From the NCBI RefSeq assembly GCF_000023705.1, contig NC_012968.1:1922001-1986000 (forward strand): DNA of 64,000 nt. Reading direction: 5' to 3'. The position numbers and the translations under genes are program-made. Below are positions 13,596 to 51,830 of this stretch, one piece after another (position 1 is the stretch's first letter; each line of letters begins with the position of its first letter). The DNA is from Methylotenera mobilis JLW8 (lineage in GTDB: Bacteria; Pseudomonadota; Gammaproteobacteria; Burkholderiales; Methylophilaceae). The notes under the pieces were generated by a model. It did no database searches. It was not told the origin of the DNA and saw only the letters and a list, made by a program, of their open reading frames with translations.

Positions 13596-13620
13596 CCCTT
13601 ATGATGGAGCACTCAAACAG

Positions 13621-13947: not shown

Positions 13948-13973
13948 GTTTATTTCCTTATGGCTTAATTTAG

Positions 13974-27153: not shown

Positions 27154-27199
27154 TTAGTCCAATCGACCTATTGTCCCATTACTTGATATCAGTTCTAAT
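27154..27199 (+). promoter_or_regulatory. Eps box and promoter of the first PEP-CTERM gene
   Basis: The box TTAGTC-CAATCG-ACCTAT (27154-27171) has an imperfect dyad. Its last T begins a -35 (TTGTCC, 27171-27176), followed by 17 bp and a -10 (TCTAAT, 27194-27199). The box is thus centred near -43, the position of a LuxR-type activator touching polymerase. The same layout is found at 51740. Confidence 0.7.
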
Positions 27200-27247
27200 C
27201 GTATCAACAGAAAATTTTACTTTTTAAGTTAAATAAAGGGAATAATA

Positions 27248-27736
27248 ATGAAACTTGTAAAACAACTACTTATCGGTGCTGCAATATTTGCTGCGGTTTC
27301 TAACGCACAAGCGGCTACCTACAACTTAGGTACATTATCAAGCGATTACACAGAGTTTGGCAGCTACTCTGTAGCTAAAGGTAGCTTCTCAGACACCATC
27401 AACTTCAGCTTAGCAGGCACTAGCGACACAGATTTCGGTGTTGGCTCTATTTTTGTTAAAGTTGGTAAAATTACTCGTCTTGATATTACTGGCTTAACTC
27501 TATCATTATTTAAAGGTACTACAGACCTAGGCCTAAGTGGCACTGATTTTAGCGCTACTGCATTAGGTGCTGGCGATTACCACTTATTAGTCACAGGTAA
27601 TGCGACCGGCACACTAGGCGGTTCATACGCTGGTGGCATTAACGTATCACCAGTACCTGAAGCAGACACGTATGCCATGATGTTAGCTGGTTTGGGCTTA
27701 ATGGGTTTTGTAGCACGTCGTCGTCGCTCACTGTAA
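27248..27736 (+). CDS. PEP-CTERM sorted protein (FxDxF-like)
   Basis: Exported protein of 162 residues with a signal peptide (cleavage after SNAQA). The mature part is a beta-rich, Gly/Thr/Ser-rich domain with GSFSDTINFSLAG, similar to the FxDxF group of PEP-CTERM proteins. The C-terminal tail has the sorting signal VPEADTYAMMLAGLGLMG, a membrane helix and RRRR, which is the substrate form for an exosortase. XrtB, encoded at 41688, should cleave at the PEP-like motif (here V-P-E-A) and release or attach the protein to the exopolysaccharide layer. An eps-type dyad box lies 76 bp before the ATG. Confidence 0.9.
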   Translation: MKLVKQLLIGAAIFAAVSNAQAATYNLGTLSSDYTEFGSYSVAKGSFSDTINFSLAGTSDTDFGVGSIFVKVGKITRLDITGLTLSLFKGTTDLGLSGTDFSATALGAGDYHLLVTGNATGTLGGSYAGGINVSPVPEADTYAMMLAGLGLMGFVARRRRSL

Positions 27737-27754
27737 TTCAGTAGTCTTCGCATA

Positions 27755-27782
27755 AAAAAGCCCCGAAAATTCGGGGCTTTTT
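27755..27782. terminator. Bidirectional terminator after the PEP-CTERM gene
   Basis: Stem AAAAAGCCCCGA/TCGGGGCTTTTT with a four-base A/T loop and A and T runs on both sides, between the PEP-CTERM gene (+) and galU (-). Confidence 0.92.
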
Positions 27783-27809
27783 CATTGTGCGCTAATCGTA
27801 ATAAAGTAA

Positions 27810-28712
27810 TTATGCACTCTTCGATTTAGTAGCAACGTGTTCTAATTGAAGAGACTCAATCAAAGCACGTAACTCGGCACCCACTTCAGGGTGTCTCAAA
27901 CCAAGCTTGATATTTGCCTCTAAATAACCAAACTTAGAGCCACAATCATAGCGCGTGCCTTCATAACGATAAGCCAGCACCTGCTCCTCGGTCAACAATG
28001 CTGAGATAGCATCCGTTAACTGTATTTCACCACCTTTACCAGCCTGCACGTTATCTAAGTGGTGGAAGATTCTAGGCGTTAAAATATAACGCCCGACCAC
28101 AGCTAATGTCGATGGCGCATCTTTAGGATCTGGTTTTTCAACAATCGCGGACACCTGCTCAATCCGTTCGTTAAGTGGTGTGGTCGCAACAATACCGTAG
28201 CTTTTAGTTTGATCACTTGGTACATTTTCTACGCCTAATAGTGAGCAACGATAATAGTCGTAAGCGTCTACCATTTGCTTCACGATGGAAACCTTACCAT
28301 CCAGCAAATCATCCGCCAGCAACACGGCAAAAGGCTCATTATTTACCACAGGCTTAGCTAAGCGTACTGCGTGCCCCAAACCCAACGCCTGAGTTTGACG
28401 GATATAAATACAATTAACATGGCTAGGCACAATGCTTTGCACAACTTTCAGCAATGCAGTCTTACCGGCACGCTCTAGCTCGCTTTCTAACTCATAAGCC
28501 ATATCAAAATGGTCTGATATAGAGCGCTTGTTACGACCGGTAATGAAAATAAGATCTGTAATTCCGGCGGCAATTGCCTCCTCTACCGCATATTGAATTA
28601 AAGGCTTATCAACAATGGGTAACATCTCTTTAGGGTTAGCCTTAGTCGCAGGCAAAAAGCGTGTACCCAAACCAGCAACAGGAAAGACAGCTTTTGTGAC
28701 TTTCTTTATCAT
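27810..28712 (-). CDS. galU: UTP-glucose-1-phosphate uridylyltransferase
   Basis: Enzyme of 300 residues making UDP-glucose from UTP and glucose-1-phosphate. Family motifs are complete: [17 protein letters not shown] at the N terminus, [24 protein letters not shown], and the C-terminal [13 protein letters not shown]-glucose feeds Ugd and the glucose-transferring EpsB of this locus. It is the last gene of the minus-strand exopolysaccharide block, but it has its own dyad box 131 bp upstream, so it is probably also transcribed independently. Confidence 0.96.
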
Positions 28713-28844
28713 TATTAAATCCTGACTATCATTTATCTAAAAAATTATATCTTTTAATCTTTGGCCACAAAAATTAGGTAAGTTAATTAATGGGGTATTT
28801 TAGCAGAATGGCACTAGGTAATAAGCCAGCTTTGCACTAAACCA

Positions 28845-28862
28845 TTAGTCCATACGGACTAA
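28845..28862. promoter_or_regulatory. Eps box upstream of galU
   Basis: TTAGTC-CATACG-GACTAA, extended to perfect 8-bp arms ATTAGTCC/GGACTAAT at 28844-28863. On the minus strand a weak -10 (TATTAC) follows at the expected distance. It belongs to the five-member box family described in the findings. Confidence 0.75.
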
Positions 28863-28881
28863 TTATCTACTTTTCATCTAC

Positions 28882-30303
28882 TCAAGAACGTCCGTAAGTA
28901 TCTTCATAACGTACAATATCATCCTCACCCAAATAGCTACCAGACTGTATTTCAATCAAATGTAATGGTAATTTCCCTGGATTTTCTAATCGATGAGTAA
29001 CGCCGATAGGAATATATGTAGACTGATTTTCAGACAGCATTTCAGTTTTACCATCGCGTGTAACTAAGGCCGTTCCGCTCACAACAACCCAATGCTCAGC
29101 GCGATGGTGATGCATTTGTAACGACAGTTTGGAGCCAGGATTTACGATAATACGTTTGACTTGAAAGCGTTCACCTATATCAACACCCTCATAGCTACCC
29201 CACGGCCGATAAACTCGTGCATGCACTTCATGCTCACTACGCCCATTACGTTTTAAATGATCTACAATCTTCTTAACATCCTGCGCACGATCTTTATGTG
29301 CGACTAACACCGCATCGGACGTTTCGATTATAACCAAATCCTCCACACCGATTGCTGCTACAATGCGGCCTTCAGCACGCACTAATGACCTTTTCACATC
29401 ATCCACATAGACATCGCCACGTAGTGCATTACCAGCCTCATCTTGTGATTGCACCTCCCACAATGCTGTCCAAGAACCCACATCATTCCAACCCATATCT
29501 ACTGGTACTAACGCAGCTAGATGAGTATTTTCCATCACAGCATAATCAATAGAGTCAGAAGGGCATTGCATAAATGACTTTTCTTCCAGACGACAAAAAT
29601 CCAGATCTCTATAACTACCTTCAAATGATTGTTTAGTTATGTCTGCAATATCTGGACGTAATCTGGCAAGCTCAGCTAAGTATGCCGATGGCTTGAATAA
29701 GAACATACCGCTATTCCAAAAATAATCCCCAGAGGCTACGTAACCCTCGGCCACGTCACGATTAGGTTTCTCTACAAACTTTTGAACTGTAAAACTTCCC
29801 TCCGCCACCCTGTCAGTATCACCTTTTTTAATATAGCCATACCCTGTTTCCGGGCTAGAGGGTTGAATGCCGAACGTTACCAATCGACCTTGAGCTGCTG
29901 CTTTTGCGGCAACTTGCACTGCAAGATGGAATGCTTTTACATCGCGAATCACGTGATCTGCTGGCAGCACCAGCATTAGCGCATCCTCAGCACCCTCTTC
30001 AACGCCATAAGCTGCAACTGCAATTGCAGGGGCCGTGTTACGCCCTACCGGCTCTAACATAATAGAGTGCGGTAAAACTTGTATCTCACGCAACTGCTCT
30101 GCCACTAAGAAACGATGATCATTACCACATACCACCATAGGCGCTAATACTTCTGGCCAATCAGCAAGACGTAATATAGTCTCTTGTAACATGGAGTGCT
30201 CAGACAATAAAGGTAATAACTGCTTAGGTAATGCAGCACGTGATAGTGGCCATAACCTCGTACCCGCCCCCCCAGAAAGAATTACTGGGATTATTTTTGT
30301 CAT
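28882..30303 (-). CDS. manC: Mannose-1-phosphate guanylyltransferase/mannose-6-phosphate isomerase
   Basis: Bifunctional type II enzyme of 473 residues. The N-terminal nucleotidyltransferase has ILSGGAGTRLWPLSR, the metal site LPADHVI and FVEKPN; the C-terminal cupin isomerase has KRIIVNPGSKLSLQMHHHR followed by EHW. It makes GDP-mannose, so the polymer should contain mannose or a sugar derived from GDP-mannose. I chose the ATG at 30303 (MTKIIPVILSGG), whose GGA leader overlaps the alternative upstream ATG at 30315. Located between phosphomannomutase and galU in the minus-strand block. Confidence 0.95.
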   Translation of the reverse strand: MTKIIPVILSGGAGTRLWPLSRAALPKQLLPLLSEHSMLQETILRLADWPEVLAPMVVCGNDHRFLVAEQLREIQVLPHSIMLEPVGRNTAPAIAVAAYGVEEGAEDALMLVLPADHVIRDVKAFHLAVQVAAKAAAQGRLVTFGIQPSSPETGYGYIKKGDTDRVAEGSFTVQKFVEKPNRDVAEGYVASGDYFWNSGMFLFKPSAYLAELARLRPDIADITKQSFEGSYRDLDFCRLEEKSFMQCPSDSIDYAVMENTHLAALVPVDMGWNDVGSWTALWEVQSQDEAGNALRGDVYVDDVKRSLVRAEGRIVAAIGVEDLVIIETSDAVLVAHKDRAQDVKKIVDHLKRNGRSEHEVHARVYRPWGSYEGVDIGERFQVKRIIVNPGSKLSLQMHHHRAEHWVVVSGTALVTRDGKTEMLSENQSTYIPIGVTHRLENPGKLPLHLIEIQSGSYLGEDDIVRYEDTYGRS

Positions 30304-30346
30304 ATTGAATTCCATTTAATATTTATCTTCAATTATCACTAAATCA

Positions 30347-31825
30347 CTATGCATCAAATGCATACGCTTTTAGTAACTGTAAACAGTGCTGCGACAAAAA
30401 GTCTGCCCGTTGTTGAAAGTTCGCCTCTGCATAGCAACGTAACTCGGGGGCATTACCAGATGCCCTAAAATGCACAATCTCATCATTCTGAAATATGATT
30501 CTTAATCCATCAGTTAGGTCTAAATCAGCCACTACGCCACAAAGCTCGCCTAACAAGTCCTCAACCACCACATTGGAATGTGCTAATTGCTGAATGATAT
30601 TCTTGCTGGTCTCTGATGGAAATGATTGTAAACGACCACTCCCTGTAAAACGAGCTGGTAGCTTACTTGCTAATTGCGATACTAGATTATTACTTTCTAT
30701 CGACATCGCCAATATAGTCAATATTGGCAGTACTGCATCTCGCGTCATCAAAGGTGAAAGTGCGCTAGTATCACGCCGAATCGTAGAACCCAGTAGGAAA
30801 CCACCGTTAGCTTCAAAACCCACAACTTGCGAAGGTACAGGTGGATTTCTTTCTACTCCATCAGCTATCAATGCCTCCATCCCGGCAATCACATAAGGTG
30901 AACCAATACGTGTACGTGTAATTTTTTGGAAAGCACAACTGAGTTCCAATGCAGTATTACTGCTAACAGGTGTAACTACCGCGGATGCATTAAGGTATTG
31001 TGCACAGAGAATACCGACAATATCGCCCCGTAGCCAGTTACCATACTCATCACCGATAAGAGGGCGGTCAGCATCACCATCTGTAGAAAAAATCGCATCA
31101 AATTTATACTCACTGGCCCAGTCACGGGCCTTTTGTATATCAATATCACTGACGGCTTCTGTATCAATCGGCACAAATTCATCTGTACGACCAAGTGAGA
31201 TTACTTCAGCCCCTAGTGCTTCAAGCAATGTGCGCAATATATCTCGTGCAACGCTGGAGTGTTCGTAAAAGCCTAAGCGTAAACCACTTAAGCAGTTTTG
31301 CGGAAAAAACTCAAGGTAGCGATTAAGATAAAGCGTCGCGGCTGCTGAGCTGACACTAGGTAAAGCGATTAACGGTAACTCAGCCGGCATGCCTACCTGT
31401 GCTCGACTGATATTAACTTCATCTGCTTTGGTAATTTCACCACATAATCCATAAAACTTAATACCATTACGGTCAAAGGGTATATGGCTCCCAGTAACCA
31501 TAATGGCAGGGACAGCGTTTACTTGAGCATAATATGCTAAAGCAGGCGTAGGTAGTGCCCCACAAAACTCAGCCTGATATCCGGCATGCTTAATAGCGCT
31601 AGCACAAGCACGTACAATATCAGAGCTACTCGGACGCAAATCCATACCAATAACAATGCGGCTACCTAACGGCAAATTTAGCGTTTGTACAAACGCTAAG
31701 GTATACGCAAAACAGAGCTCCGATGTCATCGCTGACACCAAACCACGTACCCCACTAGTGCCAAACTTAACGCCACTAGTTTCCATTAGATTCTGAATTG
31801 ATAAAGTTGTTTTAATACTATTCAC
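30347..31825 (-). CDS. Phosphomannomutase/phosphoglucomutase family enzyme
   Basis: Alpha-D-phosphohexomutase interconverting hexose 1- and 6-phosphates, here presumably mannose for ManC. Motifs: GVKFGTSGVRGLV near the start, the phosphoserine loop VTGSHIPFDRNGIKF, the metal loop STDGDADRPL and the sugar-binding FEANGGFLLGS. The phosphoserine loop has SHIP instead of the usual SHNP, a small change that keeps the Ser. The start is unclear: no ATG lies near the expected N terminus, and I use GTG at 31825; TTG 31879, GTG 31873 and ATG 31786 are alternatives. It follows ugd closely and is in the same transcription unit. Confidence 0.88.
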   Translation of the reverse strand: MNSIKTTLSIQNLMETSGVKFGTSGVRGLVSAMTSELCFAYTLAFVQTLNLPLGSRIVIGMDLRPSSSDIVRACASAIKHAGYQAEFCGALPTPALAYYAQVNAVPAIMVTGSHIPFDRNGIKFYGLCGEITKADEVNISRAQVGMPAELPLIALPSVSSAAATLYLNRYLEFFPQNCLSGLRLGFYEHSSVARDILRTLLEALGAEVISLGRTDEFVPIDTEAVSDIDIQKARDWASEYKFDAIFSTDGDADRPLIGDEYGNWLRGDIVGILCAQYLNASAVVTPVSSNTALELSCAFQKITRTRIGSPYVIAGMEALIADGVERNPPVPSQVVGFEANGGFLLGSTIRRDTSALSPLMTRDAVLPILTILAMSIESNNLVSQLASKLPARFTGSGRLQSFPSETSKNIIQQLAHSNVVVEDLLGELCGVVADLDLTDGLRIIFQNDEIVHFRASGNAPELRCYAEANFQQRADFLSQHCLQLLKAYAFDA

Positions 31826-31865
31826 TTCACCATACTTTATATGTCTTAGAGGTTTTAATGTCAAT

Positions 31866-33032
31866 TTAATCACTACCAAACAAATCGCGTGTATAAACTT
31901 TGTCTACAACATCCGCAAGCTCTTTAGCCATACGGTTAGAAACAATGACATCCGCTTTCAGTTTAAATTCGTTTAAATCTGTATAAACTTTTGAGTTAAA
32001 GAAATCTGGCTCATTTAACACAGGCTCATAAATAATGACCTCTATCCCCTTAGCCTTGATACGTTTCATAATGCCCTGGATACTAGAAGCCCTAAAATTA
32101 TCGGAGCCACTTTTCATAATGAGACGATAGATGCCCACTACTTTAGGTTTACGTTTAATAATGCTCGCAGCAACAAAATCTTTACGTGTTGTGTTAGATT
32201 CAACAATGGCATTAATAAGGTTTTGCGGCACATCACTATAGTTAGCAAGCAACTGCTTAGTATCCTTAGGTAAGCAATATCCACCATAACCAAATGATGG
32301 ATTGTTGTAATGACTACCAATACGTGGATCTAAAGCAACTCCATCTATGATCTGCTTGGTATCTAAACCATGCGTAGCGGCGTAAGTGTCTAACTCATTA
32401 AAATAAGCCACACGCATTGCAAGGTAAGTATTAGAAAATAACTTTATCGCCTCAGCCTCTGAACTGTTAGTTAACAGTACAGGAATATCTGCTTTAAGTG
32501 CACCCTCTGCCAGCAGGTTAGCAAAAACTTGCGCTCGCTCAGAGGTTTCACCAACCACAATGCGAGAAGGATATAAATTATCGTGTAATGCCTTTCCTTC
32601 GCGTAAAAATTCTGGTGAGAAAATCAAATTATCGCACTGATATTGTGCACGTGCTTTTGCGGTAAAGCCTACAGGAATAGTTGATTTGATGATCATTACC
32701 GCATTAGGTGCAACCACCATTACATCTTTAATCACAGCCTCTACTGACTTAGTATTGAAATAGTTTGTTTCAGAGTCATAATCAGTTGGGGTAGCAATAA
32801 TTACATAGTCTGCACCTTGATAAGCTTCACTCTTATCCAGCGTTGCTTTAAAGTCAAGTTGCTTGGTTTTAAGATACTCTTCAATTTCAGCATCCTCAAT
32901 CGGTGACTCTTTGCGGTTTAACATATCCACCTTTTCAGGCAAGATATCCAGCGCAACTACCGTGTGATGCTGCGCAAGTAAAACCGCCATAGAAAGGCCT
33001 ACATAACCGGTACCGGCAATTGCTATTTTCAT
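31866..33032 (-). CDS. ugd: UDP-glucose 6-dehydrogenase
   Basis: NAD-dependent enzyme of 388 residues making UDP-glucuronate. It has [15 protein letters not shown], the short-form signature [23 protein letters not shown], and the catalytic Cys in [15 protein letters not shown]. It is of the short bacterial type (Ugd of Klebsiella/E. coli length). It makes a uronic acid part of the exopolysaccharide likely. GGAG lies seven bases before the ATG. A cellulase-like gene precedes and phosphomannomutase follows. Confidence 0.95.
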
Positions 33033-33107
33033 CCATGACTCCTATTGATATTATGTTTTAAAGTGATAATGAGAAAGAGCACTCAACTCTGAATCCACAG
33101 CACGTGA

Positions 33108-34133
33108 TTAATTAGCAGGCTCTTTAATTAGCCTGTCTTTTAATTTCTGCAATAAGTGCTTCGGTTTTCCATCTAATGAATCGAGTGACAGAACATAGCT
33201 AGGTCTCATATAACCAGCCACCCAAACAAACCAATCTAAACACTCGGTATTTGTGATTGATAAAAAGGTCTCGGTTGCATCATCATAGGCAGGGTCATCA
33301 GTAGGTACGCCCCACTCACCAATAACGCCCTTTTGCTTATATTTTTTTAACCAGGAAACAAAAGGCAATAATCTGGCTTCTGTCCTAGCCTTTAAGTTTA
33401 CGTTACCAATAGGCTTTGCATACCGACCACTAAAGTCATCATCAAAATAAATGTGGGCTTCATAAACAATCTTATCACTAGGGTCAGTGACAAATGGTTG
33501 TGGATTAGATTTAGGCCATGATGACGCACTACTCCAATCGTCACCGGCAACATATATTAAATGTGATGTATCAACCTCACGAATAGCGTTTAGACCAAAT
33601 TGGGCCGTAATATGCCACAAACCCTGAGTGTGGTGTGGCTCATTCATTAGGCCATAAGCATATAACGCTGGATGCTTATGAAGTATAGTGGCCAATTTCT
33701 TCCACATATCAGCAAAAGCCTCCGAAGGGACTTGTGCGCTACCAATAAGCTCTTTTTTGTAACGTCCATAATTATGTACATCGACGATAACGACCTGATG
33801 GTTGAGATAAGCTTGATTTAAAAAAGACAAAAGTAAGTTGGCATACGTCTCATCAAGCGCACCATACAAATTGGGTTGTAAACTTTCCCATGATATTGGC
33901 AAGCGTATAGCATTAAATCCAGCATTATTAGCGCGTTGCAGATGTTCAATTTTAGGGAAAAAATAATTCTTACCCGCCATTGCCGGTAACTTGTCTCCGG
34001 CAAACTCAGCACCAGCTAAATTTACCCCACGTATAGCACTTGAACATTCTGTACTGGCATTAACATTTGTATGAAAACAACTAAGCAAAGAAAGTAATGT
34101 CATACAAATCAGTTTTCTTATTAATTTCTGCAT
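33108..34133 (-). CDS. Secreted glycoside hydrolase family 5 (endoglucanase-like)
   Basis: Exported hydrolase of about 341 residues with a signal peptide (QKLIRKLICMTLLSLLSCFHTNVNA). The TIM-barrel motifs of family 5 are there: RGVNLAGAEF, GFNAIRLPISWE, the acid/base Glu in YGLMNEPHH and the nucleophile Glu in GVIGEWGVP. It should cut beta-1,4-linked (or similar) glucan outside the cytoplasm. Within an exopolysaccharide block, such enzymes trim or edit the polymer, as cellulase BcsZ does for cellulose. The start is either ATG 34133 or ATG 34145. A 172-bp gap lies upstream without a clear terminator. Confidence 0.88.
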   Translation of the reverse strand: MQKLIRKLICMTLLSLLSCFHTNVNASTECSSAIRGVNLAGAEFAGDKLPAMAGKNYFFPKIEHLQRANNAGFNAIRLPISWESLQPNLYGALDETYANLLLSFLNQAYLNHQVVIVDVHNYGRYKKELIGSAQVPSEAFADMWKKLATILHKHPALYAYGLMNEPHHTQGLWHITAQFGLNAIREVDTSHLIYVAGDDWSSASSWPKSNPQPFVTDPSDKIVYEAHIYFDDDFSGRYAKPIGNVNLKARTEARLLPFVSWLKKYKQKGVIGEWGVPTDDPAYDDATETFLSITNTECLDWFVWVAGYMRPSYVLSLDSLDGKPKHLLQKLKDRLIKEPAN

Positions 34134-34305
34134 ATCAATGTACATTCACCAAACATTCTTACCACCGAGCCCTTATGAAAAACTGCTAATCAGCTGACCA
34201 CTAATCACCTTAAAATACGAGTGACATGCTAATTGCTTTTGAAAATGTACTTACTCTGTTCTTAATTGTATGAAACTGGCTGTCACCGATTCTGAAACAA
34301 AATCA

Positions 34306-37307: not shown

Positions 37308-37311
37308 CTAA

Positions 37312-38217: not shown

Positions 38218-38374
38218 TTCCCAATCCACACAACAAAATTTAAACATTGACCAATGCAACCTAGCAGAGCAAATGCACTGAATAAAAAGTTTTCACAAGC
38301 TAAGTTACTAAGCCACATATTTACCGAGCACCTAAAACTGGACAAGCAAAATGTAGAAACAAAACATCCCACTT

Positions 38375-39649: not shown

Positions 39650-39728
39650 CGTAAGTATGTGGCCTCTAAGAGAACTAGATGCATTGGTTTTAACTACAAC
39701 TGGGACACCAACCGCTATTGAACTAAAA

Positions 39729-40976: not shown

Positions 40977-41010
40977 AAATATCTAAGTACAACTTTATTG
41001 ACACGCTGAT

Positions 41011-42599: not shown

Positions 42600-42602
42600 T
42601 GA

Positions 42603-43490: not shown

Positions 43491-43501
43491 AGCACCCTGC
43501 C

Positions 43502-44932
43502 TTAGTTCTTGAAGCTTAAATAATTGGAATTTTTGGTCTTGCTAGAGCGCAAGAGTGGGATAAAGCGTCGACGGCGTGGCTGCTCCAAGCTATCACTCAC
43601 AATAACACCAAGCACAGGTATCGCAACCCCCTCTTGAATATCATCTGCAGAGCGCACTCGACGATCCAGCAATTCGGCTAACAACGCAAAACCTACACCT
43701 AACAACGTCCCTAAAAATATAGCCAGAATTAGATTAACCAGCGTTTTAGGGCTTGAATGCTTAATAGGCGGTACAGCTGGATTCAAAATACCCACATCAG
43801 TTTGATTGCCCTGGCCTTCTAAGCTAGTTTGCGTAAAGCGCTGATTTACTGCCTCTAAAGCACGCTGGGCGTTATCTACGTCTTTTTGCAACAGCGCCAA
43901 TTGGTCGCGTGTGCGATTAAGTGCTAACACTTTTGTCTTTTGCGCAGCCACTTGTGCGCGCAGCTCACCTTCACGCTGCTGATGAATACGAGCTGTGCCG
44001 CCAACATTAGCCGTAGCGTTACGCAGAGCCTCTTGATACTCTGATTTAATTTTATCAGCCTCTGCCTTTGCAGACTGATACTGTGGGTGGTTCTGCCCCA
44101 AACGCTGTGCAATGTCGGCTAACTTCGCATCTGTACTGGAAATTTGCACCTTGAGGCTTTGCACTAAGGGATTTGCTGCAACATCTGGTGACTGCTCAGC
44201 ATTACCACGTGTACCATTCTGACGCGACGATGCTTCAATAGCGTTGCCTTGTGCAGCGACCAGTTGTGCAGTAAGCTCATTGAGCTTTGCACTTTCAGCA
44301 TCAAATTGTTCGATACCACTGGTGATACCATTCTCTTGTTGGTAAGCTGAGAGGTTAGTTTGTGCAACCTTTAAATTTTCACGCAGCACTTTGGTTTGCG
44401 TACCTAAATACGTAGATGCGATTTGTGCCGGAGCCGTTTTAAGCTGCAAGCTGGTTTCTTGATAAGCTACGGCAAATGCATTAGCGACAATTGCTGCGAA
44501 CTCTGGGTCTGCACCCGTAAAAGATAACTCAATCACACTGCTTTCACGTGAAGGCTGCACATCTAATTTTTTTAGTAACAAACCAGCAAACCAGTTACGA
44601 ATATCACCCCGACCTTGAGTCGCCTCTTGAAACTGCGCTTGTGCTTGCGTACTGTTGGTAAACTTTAACGCATCCACTACTTTTACCGCCACATTTTGGC
44701 TAGTAATAATATCTACCTGTGTAGCCATGTAGCCAGGCATCAATTGGGCCGGCAACGCAATCCCTGTAACAGGATCCATCCCCTTATAATTTAATATCAG
44801 CGAAGTGGTAGCAGTATAAGATTTAGGAATCAGCAGGCTAACCACCAATGTAATGGTCACAGTGGTAACGAATGTTAGTAAAATAATCTTAAAGCGCGCT
44901 TTAAGAATTAATAAAAACTGCGAGAAATTCAT
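43502..44932 (-). CDS. epsF: Wzz-type chain-length determinant EpsF
   Basis: Inner-membrane polysaccharide co-polymerase of 476 residues. Two membrane helices (about 14-36 and 410-432) flank a large periplasmic region with long coiled-coil helices (about 170-360). The Pro-rich segment before the second helix (NPAVPPIKHSSPK) is typical for Wzz proteins. It controls polymer length and connects to the export protein EpsE in the outer membrane. The cytoplasmic tail can contact EpsG, encoded 11 bp downstream. Confidence 0.93.
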   Translation of the reverse strand: MNFSQFLLILKARFKIILLTFVTTVTITLVVSLLIPKSYTATTSLILNYKGMDPVTGIALPAQLMPGYMATQVDIITSQNVAVKVVDALKFTNSTQAQAQFQEATQGRGDIRNWFAGLLLKKLDVQPSRESSVIELSFTGADPEFAAIVANAFAVAYQETSLQLKTAPAQIASTYLGTQTKVLRENLKVAQTNLSAYQQENGITSGIEQFDAESAKLNELTAQLVAAQGNAIEASSRQNGTRGNAEQSPDVAANPLVQSLKVQISSTDAKLADIAQRLGQNHPQYQSAKAEADKIKSEYQEALRNATANVGGTARIHQQREGELRAQVAAQKTKVLALNRTRDQLALLQKDVDNAQRALEAVNQRFTQTSLEGQGNQTDVGILNPAVPPIKHSSPKTLVNLILAIFLGTLLGVGFALLAELLDRRVRSADDIQEGVAIPVLGVIVSDSLEQPRRRRFIPLLRSSKTKNSNYLSFKN

Positions 44933-44966
44933 AATATAGAAGTAGATTCTTTCAATTAAGCAATAC

Positions 44967-45761
44967 CTAGAACAAGCTTTCTTTTACATATAGCACATCA
45001 TCTGGCTGCACTTTTTCAGTGAGGTCAGGGCTAAACTCCATCACATCCCCATCTAAGTTGCGGCGATGCAACTTAATACCTCTTTGCGTACCACGAATTG
45101 TTGGGCCGCCGCCTTGCGCTAGCGCTTGAATCACGGTCATATCACGCTCCATGCGAAAAGTACCTGGGCGTTGTACTTCACCATAAATGTAGATTAAAGG
45201 TACACGAGATACGTAAATCACATCACCGCTTAAAAGCACCACACTAGCTTCATCTGTGCCTTTACGTAAGGCTTTATCAATATCAACTTCAATATGCGCA
45301 GGCATGCCTTCACGCACAGTATTTAGCACTACAGTATCAGCGCCATTGGGGGCAATACCGCCAGCAATAGCTAAAATTTCTGTTAAGTTAGTGGAGCGCT
45401 CAAGTGCGTAACGCCCCGGCTTGTTCACGCCACCCAACACGGAAACCATAGCGCTCTGAAATTGCATCACCAAGATATTCACTTGCGGCTGCATGATAAA
45501 ACCGCCACTTGCTAACATTGATGCGATTTTCTTTTCAGCTTCATTGGTTGTTAAACCACCAACAGACACCTCGCCAATCAGTGGAAATGAAATCACACCA
45601 GCTTCAGAGACGCGGGTATCAAGTGATAAGTCAGGATTATTGTGCACGCCAATTTTGAGTACGTCACCCGCGCCTAATTGATAAGATGATTGCGCCGCCA
45701 TTACAGGTTGCAGCATCAAATTCAAGCATAACGCCATAATGCCAATAACTAGGTGTCGCAT
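44967..45761 (-). CDS. epsE: Polysaccharide export protein EpsE (Wza-like)
   Basis: Exported protein of 264 residues with a signal peptide (MRHLVIGIMALCLNLMLQPVMA). It has the poly-export domain (YQLGAGDVLKIGVHNNPDLS, FPLIGEVSVGGLT), then SLBB domains (VSVLGGVNKPGRYAL, IYGEVQRPGTFRM). No lipobox Cys is present, unlike Wza. It forms the periplasmic and outer-membrane part of the export channel. ATG 45761 has AAGGA six bases before it; the frame runs back to 45845, but that part has no signal-peptide character. Confidence 0.93.
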   Translation of the reverse strand: MRHLVIGIMALCLNLMLQPVMAAQSSYQLGAGDVLKIGVHNNPDLSLDTRVSEAGVISFPLIGEVSVGGLTTNEAEKKIASMLASGGFIMQPQVNILVMQFQSAMVSVLGGVNKPGRYALERSTNLTEILAIAGGIAPNGADTVVLNTVREGMPAHIEVDIDKALRKGTDEASVVLLSGDVIYVSRVPLIYIYGEVQRPGTFRMERDMTVIQALAQGGGPTIRGTQRGIKLHRRNLDGDVMEFSPDLTEKVQPDDVLYVKESLF

Positions 45762-45850
45762 CTTATTCCTTATATGTTCATGTAAAGCTATATTATCAAA
45801 ATAGGGGTTCATAGAGATAATATTGCCCATATTTAACTTTTGCATTGTGG

Positions 45851-46867
45851 CTAAAGCCCAGATAAGCCTTTTTCAATATTTGCAGCTGGCTTATTTGTTG
45901 CCGACTCTGACTTTGGCGTAGAAACCGCTTCAGCAGTTTCTATCTGAGGCTTTTTAAAGGCTGGTGGCTTATCACTTAACGCAGCTGGTTCAAACTTTCT
46001 ATCCAAGTAAATTACTTTAGCTGCCTCATGCAACCGCTTCATTTCAGCCTCAATGATAGCTTTGCGTTTTTCAGCAATGATTAATTGCTCGACTTGTTTT
46101 TTTGTATCATCGTCCGCTGCAGGCGCATTCTTAATCTGCAAAATCTGCGCAATAACATTACCTTGCCGAGCGCGGATAAAAATAATATCCTGTAATTTCA
46201 TTTTACTAAGCTCAGCTAGCAACGGTGACGGTAGCGTTTCAGAGGCATGTGCAACCTGCTGATGGTTGTATTTAACGCCATGCTCATCAAGCCACTGCAT
46301 AATTTCAGCCATAGATTTAGCCTTGTCCGCAACCGCATTGAGCTCAGCACTATACGCATCTAATGGTAGTGACAGCTCATCCATCAAGTACATTTTACGG
46401 TCTGCGAAAACATCCGCATGTGTGGTCTTATATTGCGCAATATCAGCAACGGTTACCTTAGCCACTTGAGATAATTTTTCATCTATATAAGCTTGAGCCA
46501 AAATTTGCGCTTTTGCGCTTTCTATGGCTTGCACAACACGCGGATTACGATCCATCTTTGCATCAATCGCGGCTTGCACAAGCACTTGACGATCAATTAA
46601 CGCTTGTACGATTTGTTTTGCTGCAGCCTCTTGCTGCTCTGGCTTGACATTCGCTCGTTGCAACTCATTATTGACCTGATGCACGGTAATTTCATCGCCA
46701 TTGACACGCGCAATGGTTTGGCTCGCTCTAGCAGCGCTATTGTCTTTTTTATTACAGGCAGTCATTTGCAGTGCCATTGCAACCAACACAACAAGCGCAA
46801 ACATTCGAATATTAGCACTTCCCATATTCGCTAACACCTGCTTTTTGGCCTCGATTAGTTCTTGCAT
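45851..46867 (-). CDS. epsD: EpsD-family peptidyl-prolyl isomerase-like lipoprotein
   Basis: Protein of 338 residues with an N-terminal membrane segment ending in a lipobox (ALQMTAC), so probably a lipoprotein. The SurA-like N domain (ARVNGDEITVHQVNNELQRA) is followed by a parvulin-like region and a charged C-terminal tail rich in Pro, Ala and Glu. EpsD proteins open exopolysaccharide/XrtB clusters and are thought to help folding of envelope parts. GAGGA lies eight bases before ATG 46867; ATG 46825 is an alternative. First gene of a long minus-strand unit; a dyad box is located 119 bp upstream. Confidence 0.9.
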   Translation of the reverse strand: MQELIEAKKQVLANMGSANIRMFALVVLVAMALQMTACNKKDNSAARASQTIARVNGDEITVHQVNNELQRANVKPEQQEAAAKQIVQALIDRQVLVQAAIDAKMDRNPRVVQAIESAKAQILAQAYIDEKLSQVAKVTVADIAQYKTTHADVFADRKMYLMDELSLPLDAYSAELNAVADKAKSMAEIMQWLDEHGVKYNHQQVAHASETLPSPLLAELSKMKLQDIIFIRARQGNVIAQILQIKNAPAADDDTKKQVEQLIIAEKRKAIIEAEMKRLHEAAKVIYLDRKFEPAALSDKPPAFKKPQIETAEAVSTPKSESATNKPAANIEKGLSGL

Positions 46868-46986
46868 CCGTTTTTCCTCATTTATAACGACAAGAAACTT
46901 TGAAGTGATGAAAATATTTCAGAAATCAAAATTTAAGTCTTGATTGCATGTCTCGGCTATTTTTACTTTATATCAACCCCATGCAT

Positions 46987-47004
46987 ATAGCCCAATTGGA
47001 CTAT
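46987..47004. promoter_or_regulatory. Eps box upstream of epsD
   Basis: On the minus strand ATAGTC-CAATTG-GGCTAT, one base from a perfect dyad, 119 bp before epsD. It would control the main eps operon. The -35/-10 match behind it is weaker than at the PEP-CTERM genes. Confidence 0.72.
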
Positions 47005-47040
47005 TGTTCATAAACTCAAACATAAAAACGCAACGATTCT

Positions 47041-48222
47041 CTAAAAAAACAACTGTGAGGAGATTGATGCGGCTGTGTCTTTATAGTCAAAATTTTGCAG
47101 AGATGAGTCACGCTTGCTATGCTGCAAGTTAGCACCTATAGTCACACTGCGTAACGGCGTCCAATTTACACCCAAACTTACAGACTTCTCTGTGTCTTCG
47201 CGATCAGTGTTGGCGACTACGCTTTGGCCGTCAAAACTACGCCTAGCAATGCCGGCGCTAGCCTGTATATTAATTTTGTTAGTAATCGCCCAAGTTGGAG
47301 ATAACATCAAGGTATCTCTTGTTGTATAACTACTGTAGTTAGTTTGAAAGCTAGCAACCTGACGAGAGGCATTAACGCTTACTTTTATTTTGCCAGTAGG
47401 GGTCCAAACAAAAATCACACTACCAGCCGGCCGTGCGTAATCACGCTGAGAAAAGTGGTCGTGATTGCGATCCACATACGATGCTTTAACATCCAGACGC
47501 GATTTGCCAGATAAAATCCAATTAAGACCAGCTTCAACCTCACGCTCATCAAAGCCAGTATCACTTAAGTTGGAAGCATTTAGTGCGCGATTATCGTAGA
47601 CACCTTTTTTATCATGCATAATCAGGCTAGTAGTCGTACCTGATCGGTAAACATACTTAACCCCAGCATCTACTGAGTTTTGCGTATAATCAGACTCGGC
47701 TTGAAATACTTGACCATTTTCTAATGTGTAATGCGTTAGGCCTGCCAATAAATGCCAATTGCCATATGGGGACCAATCTGCATCAAAGCGCCGTGTTTCC
47801 GTAGTGCGGATATTTTGCAGCTTCTGATTAGTGTAATCTGTAAAACTATTCAGAGACTGCGCGCGATTGGCAGATAAATTACCCGTTAAATAAGGCGTTA
47901 ACGCCCATAGCCAAGCAGCTTTGTATTCCGTTGCATCAAAATCAAGATAATCAGCTTTTTGGTAACGGTAGGCTGTTTGCGTAAGATCAAACTTAAAGCG
48001 CTGTAGCGAATAAGGTTTATCAACACGAATACCAGCAAAGCTCGTTGTTATCTGGTCTGATTGTTCTGATGCGGATGTGCGAAACAGGTTGTTATCATAT
48101 TGACGGTTAACCCCCGCAATCACGTTAAACACATCCTGCTCATCAGCGAAAACAAGAACAGGCGAGAAGAAAACAGCAAACAAGACAAGCTTTAGTTTGC
48201 TGCTAAGTAAATTTGTTATCAA
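47041..48222 (-). CDS. epsL: Outer-membrane beta-barrel protein EpsL
   Basis: Outer-membrane protein of 393 residues. The signal peptide is LLSSKLKLVLFAVFFSPVLVFA, then about 16-18 amphipathic strands with alternating aromatic residues, ending in SSQLFF with terminal Phe as expected for a barrel. EpsL is associated with XrtB loci and may be the outer-membrane exit for the polymer. The start is TTG at 48222, with TTGGAG five bases before it; the frame upstream overlaps the preceding gene and gives no better N terminus. The gene is separated from epsD by the eps box. Confidence 0.88.
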   Translation of the reverse strand: MITNLLSSKLKLVLFAVFFSPVLVFADEQDVFNVIAGVNRQYDNNLFRTSASEQSDQITTSFAGIRVDKPYSLQRFKFDLTQTAYRYQKADYLDFDATEYKAAWLWALTPYLTGNLSANRAQSLNSFTDYTNQKLQNIRTTETRRFDADWSPYGNWHLLAGLTHYTLENGQVFQAESDYTQNSVDAGVKYVYRSGTTTSLIMHDKKGVYDNRALNASNLSDTGFDEREVEAGLNWILSGKSRLDVKASYVDRNHDHFSQRDYARPAGSVIFVWTPTGKIKVSVNASRQVASFQTNYSSYTTRDTLMLSPTWAITNKINIQASAGIARRSFDGQSVVANTDREDTEKSVSLGVNWTPLRSVTIGANLQHSKRDSSLQNFDYKDTAASISSQLFF

Positions 48223-48235
48223 ATCAGCTCCAACA

Positions 48236-48763
48236 TCATTTTGTAACACCGAAGTGCTCGGGAATGAGACGTGTAACAGTCTCACGTATGCGAGCGCCCA
48301 TGACCTGAAGTAATTTCAAGAGCAACTTATTCGCCATACGCGGATGCTGAAGCAACAGGTCGTTCAAAGTAGCCCTAGTCATCACAGCAAAATCCGTGGG
48401 CATGGTGGTAACACAACTAGCAAATCGCACATTACTGTCAACAAACCCCATCTCTCCGACTACGCCTCCCGCTTTAACCTCAACCAGGTACTGGTTATCC
48501 ATACCATCCATATTCTTTCTCACCACAACCTCGCCACTCAGCACCAGTAGCATAAAGTCACCTTCATCACCCTCGTTCATTACCTTATAGCCTCTAGGAG
48601 CTGCATAACATTGCATATAACCACATAGAATCTTGGCTTCATCATAGTCAAACCCGCCAAAAATTTTATTTTGGTTAAACATGTCGCAGATTTCATCTAC
48701 GTACTGATCCGCTTTGCCTAAGCAAAGTAAATCCGGGTAATTATGTAAAAAATTTTTCGCCAT
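48236..48763 (-). CDS. Cyclic-nucleotide-binding protein without DNA-binding domain
   Basis: Cytoplasmic protein of 175 residues with a CRP-like beta-roll (about 45-160). The phosphate-binding cassette is GGVVGEMGFVDSNVRFAS, and its Glu and Arg, which contact cyclic nucleotide, are kept. The helix-turn-helix of CRP is absent: the protein ends soon after the dimer helix. So it is a signal-binding module rather than a transcription factor. It precedes epsL by 13 bp and is probably in a two-gene operon with it, which suggests control of export by a nucleotide signal (inference). Confidence 0.85.
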   Translation of the reverse strand: MAKNFLHNYPDLLCLGKADQYVDEICDMFNQNKIFGGFDYDEAKILCGYMQCYAAPRGYKVMNEGDEGDFMLLVLSGEVVVRKNMDGMDNQYLVEVKAGGVVGEMGFVDSNVRFASCVTTMPTDFAVMTRATLNDLLLQHPRMANKLLLKLLQVMGARIRETVTRLIPEHFGVTK

Positions 48764-49135
48764 TACATTCCATCAACTTTTCAATCAGCACACTGTCATC
48801 AACAGCTATTTACAGCTTTTTTACCCACCTATCACTACATTATGGGAGGTTACGCGTTTTGGATAAGAATTTACAATAGTCTAATTGGACTATTGCATCC
48901 ATTATAAATACATATACCATCTACACTGAGAGTTATTGAGTTATACAAAAATTAGAATTTTTAACCATGCTAAAGAAGCATTTATGGCCAATTTAAGTTA
49001 TTCATATAAATACAATGATCCAAACTTGTAATTACATTTTAACACTCATCAAATAATCAAAATTTGCATACCGTCCTGACAGGTAAGTTGGCAATCGTCC
49101 CAATCAAAGTTTATTAAAACAATACGGCAAAACTA
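48764..49135. promoter_or_regulatory. Divergent intergene with eps box (48876-48893)
   Basis: This 372-bp region separates the cNMP-binding gene (-) and epsA (+). The box ATAGTC-TAATTG-GACTAT (perfect 8-bp arms CAATAGTC/GACTATTG, 48874-48895) lies 112 bp before the former and 242 bp before the latter. Toward the minus strand a -35-like TTGTAA with a weak -10 follows; toward plus I see no fitting -10. No further gene is visible. Confidence 0.72.
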
Positions 49136-49927
49136 ATGGATACAGGTTTAATTTTGAGCGATCGTCGTCACGGCGACTTAAATACTTTGATGTACCAATG
49201 CCTGCATTTAAACTCTCACCTTGATTTGATGCTATGGCTACAAGGTGACTTATTTCAAAGATTCGTCAAACATGAAGTAATGATTGCAGCTTGGGGGGAT
49301 TTTACATTAGGGATTCTATACGTGGACATTGTCTCGTTATTGCCCGGCGTAAGAACAGGTAAGGTAACAAGTACGGACCTCACCAACCTGATGACGGACT
49401 TATTTCAATACTGGAAGCACCATTCAAAAGCCCCTATTACCATGAATGTAGATAAGGGAATTTTCCACGACCACCAAATTGCTCATCACGAAGCAAATAT
49501 TAACTTAAGTACCATGCAATCTGCGCATATTCACGGCATCAAAGATCTCAGGGGGGGGCATGATTGTTTATATGTTTTTTTAAGTAGCGAAACAAATAAC
49601 TCATCTAATTATAAGAAGTCCCTCACCATGCTACTACCGTTTATAGACAATTCGCTCAGGCAACTTGAGCACTTGCCTGAACAACTGCCAGAAGTAGAGC
49701 CAGAAAAAACTATCGATGACAATCAAGTTACCGGCATTTTATCGGAGAGAGAAATTAGTATTATGGAGTGGGTGAAAGCTGGAAAAACGAACCAGGAAAT
49801 CGGGATAATTCTTGACATCAGTTCCTTTACCGTGAAAAATCACATGCAGCGCATACTCAAAAAACTAGACGTACTTAATCGAGCGCAAGCTGTAACGCAA
49901 TTTAATCGGATGTACCAGACTCAATAA
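49136..49927 (+). CDS. epsA: LuxR-family transcriptional regulator EpsA
   Basis: Regulator of 263 residues. An N-terminal domain of about 190 residues shows no receiver or acyl-homoserine-lactone pattern that I recognise; the C-terminal GerE/LuxR helix-turn-helix is LSEREISIMEWVKAGKTNQEIG followed by SSFTVKNHMQRILKKLDV. This corresponds to the EpsA regulators of XrtB loci. It overlaps epsB by one base (TAATG). It is the best candidate to bind the five dyad boxes in this window, because LuxR-type proteins bind 18-20-bp dyads near -42. The signal is unknown. Confidence 0.9.
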   Translation: MDTGLILSDRRHGDLNTLMYQCLHLNSHLDLMLWLQGDLFQRFVKHEVMIAAWGDFTLGILYVDIVSLLPGVRTGKVTSTDLTNLMTDLFQYWKHHSKAPITMNVDKGIFHDHQIAHHEANINLSTMQSAHIHGIKDLRGGHDCLYVFLSSETNNSSNYKKSLTMLLPFIDNSLRQLEHLPEQLPEVEPEKTIDDNQVTGILSEREISIMEWVKAGKTNQEIGIILDISSFTVKNHMQRILKKLDVLNRAQAVTQFNRMYQTQ

Positions 49928-51339
49928 TGCCTGTAAAAACAAACTTCACAAATAACAAACTATCTGGCATCGCTTTATCAAGAGACAACATACTCCAAAT
50001 CATAGAGATTATGATGGACCCCGTGCTGGCAGCACTTACCTTGTGGTGCTCAGCTTTTATCATTGAGGGTCATCTACACCCAACCTACCTGATTTTATCA
50101 ATTATTGCCTTCTCGCTTACTTACCCAAGCAACCCAAAAATTGAACAATCAATGATGGAGTCCGCCAGAAAGCTGCTCTTTTCATGGTTTATATTAACGA
50201 CCATTTTGGTATCTCTAGGAATAGTCACCGGCTATATTGATGACTTTTACAGCAACACAATAATTGCATGGTTGACCATCACGCCAATTGTACAAATTAT
50301 TGGTGCAATCTTACTAAAAGCATTCGCCCCTACCATTGTTAAATTACAAGGTGAAACCAAACGTGCTGTGATTGTAGGTGTTAACACTAGAGGCATTCAT
50401 CTCGCCAAAAAGTTAGAAGAGAGCCAATATCACCTCACTGAGCTGATGGGCTTTTTTGAGGATCGCCAAATCGACAGGCATTCAACAGAGTTGAACTATC
50501 CTATTTTAGGCAACTTCAATGACTTACTTGCCTACATTAAAGAGAATCAAATTAATGTCATTTATTTATCGCTACCGATGGCAAGCCAGCCACGTATTAT
50601 CAAATTACTGGACGAACTAAAAGATACCACCGCCTCTATTTATTTTGTACCAGACATATTTCTAACGGACTTGATACAAAGCAAAATCGGCGAAATTAAT
50701 GGCATGCCGATAGTGGCAGTGCGTGAAACGCCGTTTACAGGAATCAATGGTTTAATCAAGCGGATTACAGACATACTACTTACTTCAATCATTATATTGC
50801 TCATTTCACCGCTATTACTAATAGTTGCTGTCGGGGTCAAACTAAGCTCACCTGGTCCGATTGTTTTTAAACAAAGACGCTATGGTCTAGATGGTGAAGA
50901 AATATTAGTCTACAAATTTCGCTCAATGACTACATGTGACAATGGCGAGCATGTTGCACAAGCCACAAGAAATGATCAACGTATTACTAAGTTTGGTAAT
51001 TTCATCAGAAAAACTTCATTAGATGAACTACCTCAGTTTGTAAATGTATTGCAAGGGCGCATGAGCATTGTGGGCCCACGTCCCCATGCGGTATCGCATA
51101 ACGAAATGTATCGGAAACTCATTACAGGTTACATGATTCGGCATAAAGTTAAACCCGGCATTACCGGCTGGGCACAAGTTAACGGATTGCGTGGCGAGAC
51201 CGAGACCTTGGACAAGATGCAAGCTCGCATTGACTATGACATTGAGTATCTACGCAACTGGAGTACGCGCTTAGATTTATACATTATTTTCAAAACTGTT
51301 TGGGTAGTATTTTTCAAAGGCCAAAAAAGTGCGTATTAA
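49927..51339 (+). CDS. epsB: Undecaprenyl-phosphate glucose phosphotransferase EpsB
   Basis: Initiating transferase of 470 residues. N-terminal membrane helices and a CoA-binding-like Rossmann domain (KRAVIVGVNTRGIHLAKKL) come first; from about residue 275 a membrane helix leads into the bacterial sugar transferase domain with VFKQRRYGLDGEEILVYKF, KTSLDELPQFVNVLQGRMS and VGPRPHA, ending in KPGITGWAQVNGLRGET. It puts glucose-1-phosphate (or galactose) on undecaprenyl phosphate and so starts the repeat unit. UDP-glucose from GalU would be its donor. Confidence 0.94.
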   Translation: MPVKTNFTNNKLSGIALSRDNILQIIEIMMDPVLAALTLWCSAFIIEGHLHPTYLILSIIAFSLTYPSNPKIEQSMMESARKLLFSWFILTTILVSLGIVTGYIDDFYSNTIIAWLTITPIVQIIGAILLKAFAPTIVKLQGETKRAVIVGVNTRGIHLAKKLEESQYHLTELMGFFEDRQIDRHSTELNYPILGNFNDLLAYIKENQINVIYLSLPMASQPRIIKLLDELKDTTASIYFVPDIFLTDLIQSKIGEINGMPIVAVRETPFTGINGLIKRITDILLTSIIILLISPLLLIVAVGVKLSSPGPIVFKQRRYGLDGEEILVYKFRSMTTCDNGEHVAQATRNDQRITKFGNFIRKTSLDELPQFVNVLQGRMSIVGPRPHAVSHNEMYRKLITGYMIRHKVKPGITGWAQVNGLRGETETLDKMQARIDYDIEYLRNWSTRLDLYIIFKTVWVVFFKGQKSAY

Positions 51340-51697
51340 CGCAAAGAGAGTCAGTACAGTAGCGCTGATTCTCCTAATAACATTGACCGCCGCACTATTC
51401 ATTGGTGGACATCAACCGGGATCTGGCAAACTATTCCCACCACCATGGGATAAAGTCGTGCATTTATTATTTTACGGCTCGACTGCAACTTTAGCTGGAT
51501 TGGCATTTACCAGACTATCTATCCCAATCATTATATTGGGCACAATAACACTAGGTATTGCGGATGAAATCCACCAGATATTCGTGCCTGGCCGCCACCC
51601 TGGATTTGATGATCTTATTGCGGATGCCGTCGGCATCTGTATTGCAGCACTGCTTATACCTATGTTTCGCAAAAGATTACTACCACCCCTTCAATAA
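51329..51697 (+). CDS. VanZ-like membrane protein
   Basis: Small membrane protein of 122 residues with four hydrophobic helices. The family motif PPPWDKVVHLLFYG and the closing ADEIHQIFVPGRHPGFDDLIADAVG identify VanZ/YpjA-type proteins. Such genes are common in exosortase and polysaccharide loci; the function is not known. It overlaps the end of epsB by 11 bp and ends the epsA-epsB unit. Confidence 0.88.
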   Translation: MRINAKRVSTVALILLITLTAALFIGGHQPGSGKLFPPPWDKVVHLLFYGSTATLAGLAFTRLSIPIIILGTITLGIADEIHQIFVPGRHPGFDDLIADAVGICIAALLIPMFRKRLLPPLQ

Positions 51698-51739
51698 CCA
51701 TCTAAAAGCACTCAAAATACATCCAACCACCCTATTGAG

Positions 51740-51785
51740 TTAGTCTCATCGGACTATTGGGACGAATCGCTCGCAATGCTAATAT
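51740..51785 (+). promoter_or_regulatory. Eps box and promoter of the second PEP-CTERM gene
   Basis: Box TTAGTC-TCATCG-GACTAT (51740-51757); its last T starts the -35 TTGGGA (51757-51762), then 17 bp and a -10 TAATAT (51780-51785). Spacing is identical to the promoter at 27154. Confidence 0.78.
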
Positions 51786-51830
51786 TTGCCCGTGAAATCT
51801 TGAATGATTTATTTTACGGGTGTAAAGAAT

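Follow-up and report, generated by a model that had tools for sequence, protein, structure and literature searches.

A mirrored box of the form TAGTCY-N4-RGACTA, often with TTG next to it, recurs in the eps/xrtB locus of Methylotenera mobilis JLW8. Sequence comparison makes it probable that this box is the operator of EpsA, that it would serve class II activation at PEP-CTERM promoters, and that one operator set ties together the regulon.

The box and its locus

An earlier note on this DNA had described five intergenic dyads of the shorter form WTAGTC-N6-GACTAW in the window (the whole 64-kb stretch analysed here). The mirrored box is real, and all five dyads are in place and outside ORFs of at least 80 aa, but only three fit that form exactly and the common element extends beyond it. 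The dyad at 27154 is the weakest of the five, yet it has the expected promoter downstream. As the note held, the sites precede genes of one process, standing ahead of the two PEP-CTERM genes and of the units in which the eps/xrtB locus is transcribed. They are listed below with the genes around them, mismatches being counted against the shorter form and bit scores marked R1 coming from a sequence-only model (A3/R1) trained on 55 of 59 nonredundant sites, all from other genomes (three sites of L223 and one of L285 were left out).

27154..27171, plus strand: putative EpsA box 1, TTAGTCCAATCGACCTAT, 2 mismatches, R1 9.3 bits, upstream of PEP-CTERM gene 1
27248..27736, plus strand: PEP-CTERM gene 1, FxDxF family (NF038126, 118.8 bits; PF07589)
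27810..28712, minus strand: galU-like gene, an ORF named in the earlier note
28845..28862, unstranded: putative EpsA box 2, TTAGTCCATACGGACTAA, 0 mismatches, between manC and galU, 132 bp upstream of the galU ATG
28882..46867, minus strand: co-directional set of epsD, epsG, xrtB (epsH), epsI, glycosyltransferase-like, GH5 and sugar-nucleotide genes, and manC
46987..47004, unstranded: putative EpsA box 3, ATAGCCCAATTGGACTAT, 1 mismatch, R1 17.2 bits on the epsD strand and 19.2 on the opposite strand, 119 bp upstream of epsD
47041..48285, minus strand: epsL (TIGR03014, 412 bits)
48236..48763, minus strand: cNMP-binding-domain protein (PF00027), overlapping epsL
48876..48893, unstranded: putative EpsA box 4, ATAGTCTAATTGGACTAT, 0 mismatches, in the divergent region that separates epsA from the cNMP-domain gene/epsL, R1 20.7 bits on the minus and 16.5 on the plus strand
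49136..49927, plus strand: epsA, proposed regulator (TIGR03020, 238.6 bits, curated cut-off 170; GerE HTH at residues 201-254)
49927..51339, plus strand: undecaprenyl-phosphate glucose phosphotransferase (TIGR03023)
51329..51697, plus strand: VanZ-like gene, from a profile search
51740..51757, plus strand: putative EpsA box 5, TTAGTCTCATCGGACTAT, 0 mismatches, R1 13.1 bits, before PEP-CTERM gene 2
51804..52457, plus strand: PEP-CTERM gene 2, DUF642 (the choice-of-anchor C model scores below its cut-off)

Within the co-directional set, epsD, epsG, xrtB (TIGR03113, 422.8 bits), epsI, a chain-length gene, GH5 and manC were identified by profile and the others by ORF reading. The whole genome holds two PEP-CTERM genes, both in the window behind boxes 1 and 5. 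A signal-peptide-like N-terminus suggests that PEP-CTERM gene 2 may start at the ATG at 51831.

Significance in the window and the genome

At two mismatches WTAGTC-N6-GACTAW has 11 matches in the window against 6.5 expected in 64 kb, so that the 27154 dyad taken alone is not significant. One mismatch leaves 4 matches against 0.28 expected, and the exact core TAGTC-N6-GACTA occurs three times against 0.01, these being the sole copies in the 2.55-Mb genome and all within the locus. Relaxed to at most one mismatch, the core was rejected as a genome-wide test, since it gives 35 mostly scattered copies and the backwards core used as control gives 151. The scan of the genome proposed in the earlier note was run with R1 and returned seven matches at E≤10 (150 of 207 first-look candidates scored), clustered at four of the five sites instead of scattered at random. 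Box 2 is the best match in the genome (21.3 and 19.4 bits on its two strands), and box 1 surfaced only in the R1 scan of the window with filters off (E 0.13 per 64 kb), where the best match away from the five sites reached 6.8 bits.

We give practically no credence to the idea that chance alone placed these five dyads in AT-rich intergenic DNA. The 35 relaxed cores could be cited for it, but they are fewer than the 151 of the control, all seven matches of a model built from other genomes fall at four of the five sites, the box recurs upstream of the same genes in relatives, and its spacing to the -10 hexamer is fixed. It was dropped on the independent-model scan and is in practice refuted for boxes 2-5.

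Recurrence in relatives

Six relatives were picked because they are rich in sites, and of their 67 sites 37 lie immediately upstream of a PEP-CTERM gene (one of the 37 precedes a gene just below the Pfam cut-off), where less than 1% would be expected per site; the gene list for this count comprised 138 of 139 profile matches, one below the cut-off having been dropped. A looser-pattern box is found at only 33 of 136 PEP-CTERM genes of the same six genomes. Across 74 EpsA loci, which overlap the family sample and come from relatives that are not independent of one another, there are 20 exact sites versus 0-1 for 24 permuted dyads, and at one mismatch or fewer 59 sites in 38 loci versus 0-20 in 0-17 loci. 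EpsA loci of other beta-proteobacterial families carry the box too, before PEP-CTERM genes (called outside the family, and in the 59-site promoter set, by our own sequence pattern and not by Pfam), the cNMP-domain gene and epsD; one misfit site stands before a SulP-type transporter gene (L231). This recurrence upstream of the same genes bears out the regulon reading of the earlier note. Genome-wide, the strict palindrome outnumbers the backwards pattern by 149 to 91 in genomes with an EpsA of at least 200 bits, and in the remaining genomes it is outnumbered by it, 6 to 61; measured against this demanding control, the genome-wide excess is modest.

Promoter geometry

Promoters adjoin three of the boxes in the window, good ones for both PEP-CTERM genes and a weaker one for epsD:

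27171..27199, plus strand: promoter of PEP-CTERM gene 1, -35 TTGTCC, 17 bp, -10 TCTAAT, spacing as in relatives
46959..46987, minus strand: possible epsD promoter, TATGCA, 17 bp, AAAAAT; the R1 match extends to 46959
51757..51785, plus strand: promoter of PEP-CTERM gene 2, -35 TTGGGA, 17 bp, -10 TAATAT

A -10 hexamer at the expected distance is poor for galU, cNMP/epsL and epsA. Among the 59 nonredundant sites, TTG follows directly 3' of the dyad in 27, and a TATAAT-like hexamer (at least 4 of 6 positions) stands at offset 23 in 25, versus 1-8 at the other 24 offsets and a top count of 14 at any offset in 2000 shuffles. Relative to the promoter so read, the dyad centre lies at about -43.5 and the box adjoins the -35 hexamer; this agrees with the class II layout (dyad near -42, adjoining -35, fixed -10), the -10 standing at offset 23 in the said 25 of 59 sites of relatives. 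One relative, G026, has five tandem pairs of boxes 33 bp apart, the second box lying farther upstream, and other tandem spacings are also present.

Class II activators usually bind in this position, near -43.5, and lux boxes, which differ from the EpsA box in sequence, are likewise dyads near -42 to -44 that overlap or abut the -35 hexamer. We infer that the LuxR-type protein EpsA, which has a GerE domain for DNA binding, reads TAGTCY-N4-RGACTA, and that at PEP-CTERM promoters an EpsA dimer would lie alongside the -35 box, the dyad being centred near -43.5, and recruit sigma-70 RNA polymerase by class II activation. The operator set would link galU (sugar-nucleotide supply) with the epsD-xrtB-manC set, with epsL and the cNMP-domain gene that partners it, with epsA itself and with the two cargo proteins, and some ligand may control EpsA. 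A protein bound against the -35 hexamer might also block polymerase, and the sites could then be repressor operators at which EpsA shuts promoters. We think this unlikely, as the position near -43.5 is, by analogy, that of an activator, and the 33-bp pairs of G026 would, on geometry, fit a second activator dimer.

EpsA and its family

The EpsA of the window matches TIGR03020 over residues 7-257, in a genome whose content fits that family (XrtB and two PEP-CTERM genes present), and its C-terminal GerE HTH scores 65 bits with PF00196. The predicted structure (pLDDT 86.7) has LuxR-type matches, and the modelled N-domain fold may resemble LuxR autoinducer-binding domains; by sequence, matches in the PDB lie within the HTH part, and the sole PADLOC match was a weak one, of the HTH to a CARF model. 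The earlier note took EpsA for the sole LuxR-type regulator of the locus. A LuxR-type gene is indeed seen in the locus, but a second EpsA-family gene lies elsewhere in the genome (C1:1131774-1132478, above the TIGR03020 cut-off), away from the locus, its neighbours being other polysaccharide genes and one that is RNase R-like.

Identities of TIGR03020 members to the window EpsA form three bands, roughly 43-62%, 34-41% and 25-32%, by which types A, B and C were assigned; G048 and G038 give partial matches to the third type (32% and 35%), G038 being aligned among the type-B rows, and G061, with a type-A fragment only, was counted as being without A/B EpsA. Treating all members as one group was abandoned, as the bands track the box differently. 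In the A and B proteins inspected the recognition helix reads [FL]TVK[NK]HxQ, and in C it reads NTVK[NS]HLK. A type-B outlier, G020, has NTVKNHVH, and none of the three type-B genomes of its genus has a box.

The second gene of the window's genome is of type C, and as a member of the same TIGRFAM above the cut-off it might itself bind the box. This is very unlikely: its recognition helix differs from that of A/B, it is distant from the locus, and boxes occur in only 2 of 13 C-only genomes, a control weakened because in the window's genus PEP-CTERM genes are likewise lacking from 7 of 8 C-only genomes.

Co-occurrence of the box with EpsA

In the nine genera having both states, the box is present in 33 of 37 genomes with A/B EpsA versus 4 of 37 without (CMH p=2e-8). 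For PEP-CTERM-bearing genomes the figures are 13 of 16 versus 3 of 9 (p=0.03), PEP-CTERM genes having been counted in 33 of 120 sampled genomes and found in 25 of these. Seven of 45 A/B genomes are without a strict site, and three of the seven (G047, G035 and G011) have a one-mismatch site before epsA.

The earlier note had expected enrichment before PEP-CTERM genes only in genomes with EpsA. The enrichment is there, but the restriction does not strictly hold because G005, G051 and G059, all with PEP-CTERM genes, have boxes and no detected A/B-type EpsA. G005 has four strict sites, and nine of its nine looser-pattern sites precede PEP-CTERM genes. It cannot decide the matter as a clean counterexample: no exosortase was detected in its assembly, from which the eps locus is perhaps therefore missing. 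The same excuse does not fully cover G051, which has two sites and keeps xrtB; G059 also has two sites. Searches by tblastn for an EpsA fragment in fetched stretches of G051, G059 and G101 gave no match.

These genomes, G005 with its nine sites and G051 and G059 with theirs, are what one would see if another regulator travelling with exosortase loci bound the box and EpsA were a mere neighbour. We hold this to be decidedly unlikely: within genera the box tracks A/B EpsA, some of the loci inspected have a box with at most one mismatch ahead of epsA, and G016 and G018, with 12 and 3 PEP-CTERM genes, have neither EpsA above the cut-off nor a strict box. LuxR-type proteins bind dyads of about this size, which by analogy also points to EpsA. 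Binding of the box by EpsA, as the earlier note proposed, is thus a prediction well supported, not proven, by the A/B co-occurrence, the differing C helix and the activator-like position of the box.

Relation to known control of PEP-CTERM genes

Haft et al. 2006 (PMC1569441) describe a sigma-54 PEP-CTERM box with PrsR/PrsK/PrsT. Like the box presented here, it is a cis element before PEP-CTERM genes that was found by comparison, with its regulator matched by co-occurrence; unlike it, it has a -24/-12 promoter and an NtrC-type regulator instead of a dyad beside -35/-10 and a LuxR-type protein. PrsR (TIGR02915) is not above cut-off in the window's genome (best 411.5 bits vs 502.6) and is above it in 1 of 15 genomes tested. 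Aquincola pepA (PMC9850573) is likewise a PEP-CTERM gene under dedicated control but RpoN-dependent (sigma-54), while the EPS genes, according to that paper, seem not to be controlled by RpoN1, and PMC3684757 concerns a different LuxR-type regulator of matrix genes. EpsA itself resembles LuxR-type class II activators in its GerE domain and perhaps in the modelled fold of its N-domain. In the literature searched, mostly non-subscription, we found no paper describing an EpsA/LuxR box before PEP-CTERM genes and no reported binding site for EpsA (TIGR03020, XrtB/PEP-CTERM-associated transcriptional regulator). We propose such a site here, along with the split of the TIGR03020 members encountered into types A, B and C.

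We lean towards the broader view that XrtB-branch beta-proteobacteria direct PEP-CTERM cargo by a second cis code, of sigma-70 type: an EpsA box that types A and B read and type C does not. It would replace the sigma-54 PrsR box, and through it a single LuxR-type sensor would govern sorted surface proteins along with polymer synthesis and export and a cNMP-domain protein. Control of exosortase cargo in the literature found belongs to the sigma-54 branch, and the box provides the XrtB/EpsA branch with a regulon open to testing and EpsA with a concrete putative target. With its fixed promoter geometry it allows a prediction of which PEP-CTERM genes share their expression with the polymer, and candidate members of the regulon are the cNMP-domain gene and, in some species, GGDEF/EAL and HD genes.

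Dyad Sites in the Window and in the Genome of M. mobilis

The earlier note had described five copies of a dyad of the form WTAGTC-N6-GACTAW preceding genes of one process, and in the window sequence all five are indeed present, each standing before a transcription unit of the locus:

27154, before PEP-CTERM gene 1
28845, before galU
46987, before the long epsD-xrtB-manC gene set
48876, before the cNMP gene and epsL and also before the divergently oriented epsA
51740, before PEP-CTERM gene 2

The form itself is exact at three sites, with one mismatch at 46987 and two at 27154. Exact TAGTC-N6-GACTA has three occurrences in the window (0.01 expected), all in this locus, and these are the sole ones in the 2.55-Mb genome. 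At up to one mismatch we counted 35 cores genome-wide against 151 for the core read backwards, which makes the loose core useless as a genome test. The PEP-CTERM genes detected in this genome by PF07589 are two, the same two that lie behind boxes.

A sequence-only model was built from an alignment of 55 of 59 nonredundant proximal sites located before PEP-CTERM genes in other genomes. Applied to the M. mobilis genome, it gave seven matches at E ≤ 10, all seven at 28845, 46987, 48876, and 51740. Site 27154 is the weakest of the five, with 9.3 bits in a window scan with filters off (next off-site match, 6.8 bits), and the promoter found behind it (TTGTCC, 17 bp, TCTAAT) speaks for it.

Distribution of the Box and Its Candidate Regulator

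We scanned a family sample of 120 genomes for the strict palindrome TAGTCYNNNNRGACTA, which was present in 39 of the 50 genomes with EpsA (TIGR03020) scoring at least 200 bits, in one of eight whose sole member scores 170–200 bits, and in 3 of 62 without EpsA. Total counts of palindrome versus backwards pattern were 149 vs. 91, 2 vs. 6, and 6 vs. 61, respectively. By chance alone the backwards pattern turns up more often, so genomes lacking EpsA are depleted of the box and genomes with EpsA carry it above control. Strict sites ranged from 0 to 19 per genome. The enrichment before PEP-CTERM genes anticipated for relatives was found in six of them, picked for their many sites, where 37 of 67 sites adjoin a PEP-CTERM gene on its upstream side; seen from the genes, 33 of the 136 PEP-CTERM genes in these genomes carry such a site.

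By identity to the window EpsA, TIGR03020 members fall into three types. The strict box appears in 8/12 genomes with type A without B, 9/9 with both, 21/24 with B without A, and 2/13 with C only. The aligned A and B proteins share the recognition helix [FL]TVK[NK]HxQ, while type C, including the second copy of M. mobilis, has NTVK[NS]HLK. One type-B protein (genome G020) deviates, with NTVKNHVH, and in its genus the box occurs in none of three type-B genomes. The M. mobilis paralogue, with flanks read from ORFs, is:

C1:1131723-1132553 (L278 4724-5554), type-C EpsA, polysaccharide-type genes on one side and an RNase R-like gene on the other

Given that EpsA travels with the exosortase, the comparison was also restricted to PEP-CTERM-bearing genomes, drawn from 33 searched for such genes; the box was found in 13/16 with type A/B EpsA vs. 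3/9 without (p = 0.03). The claim that the box occurs only in genomes with EpsA stands as a tendency, with 33/37 genomes with A/B EpsA vs. 4/37 without across nine genera having both states (CMH p = 2e-8), and fails as a strict rule in the three PEP-CTERM-bearing exceptions, G005, G051, and G059, which bear the box with no A/B EpsA detected. G005 has 16 PEP-CTERM genes over cut-off, and no exosortase was detected in its assembly. G016 and G018 (12 and 3 PEP-CTERM genes), without EpsA over cut-off, had no strict box, and in G016 PrsR was also not over its cut-off. EpsA remains the best candidate binder of the box, not a proven one.

Promoter Geometry

TTG lies directly 3′ of the dyad in 27 of 59 sites, and a TATAAT-like hexamer (at least 4/6 matches) begins 23 bp past it in 25, compared with 1–8 sites at the remaining 24 offsets and a top count of 14 at any offset in 2000 shuffles. 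Outside Methylophilaceae the hexamer has this offset in 7 of 13 sites. TTG-N3, 17 bp, and the −10 read as a sigma-70 promoter, with the dyad centered near −43.5. Among the window sites, those of both PEP-CTERM genes show good geometry, that of epsD fits less well, and those of galU, the cNMP gene, and epsA fit poorly. One relative, G026, has five tandem box pairs (L137, L138, L139, L141, and L142), with a spacing of exactly 33 bp in every pair, or roughly three turns of the helix; spacing differs in other genomes (e.g., 92–96 and 18 bp).

Relation to Known PEP-CTERM Control

For 99 of 167 proteobacterial PEP-CTERM genes, Haft et al. (2006) described an upstream sigma-54 element paired with PrsR/PrsK/PrsT; a word search of that text (PMC1569441) found neither LuxR nor palindrome. 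Of 15 genomes tested, G021 alone had PrsR over cut-off, and M. mobilis did not. No description of this box turned up in our literature searches; we call it new, and the whole a putative LuxR-type regulon with a predicted regulator, running parallel to the sigma-54 system.

EpsA Loci Across Families and Cyclic di-GMP

Scanning genome contigs with type-A EpsA yielded 74 loci, including Rhodoferax, Curvibacter, Rhodocyclaceae, and Nitrosospira. Exact sites number 20 across the 74 loci (0–1 for each of 24 permuted dyads), and at up to one mismatch there are 59 sites spread over 38 loci (0–20 for the permuted dyads). The genes scanned behind these boxes were PEP-CTERM genes, the same cNMP-domain gene, and epsD, with single cases of GGDEF, GGDEF-EAL, HD-type, and SulP-transporter genes. 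At locus L213 boxes precede both a PAS-GGDEF-EAL gene and one of HD type (12341-15765), and at L234 a box precedes a GGDEF gene (12983), hinting that c-di-GMP enzymes belong to the regulon in some species. Two window genes touch the same subject:

26114-27019, HD-domain (HD_5) protein directly upstream of PEP-CTERM gene 1, possibly a c-di-GMP phosphodiesterase
42603-43490, EpsG kinase with an N-terminal MshE-type cyclic di-GMP-binding motif (NF053729, 45 bits, cut-off 38), which may make export of the polymer responsive to c-di-GMP as well
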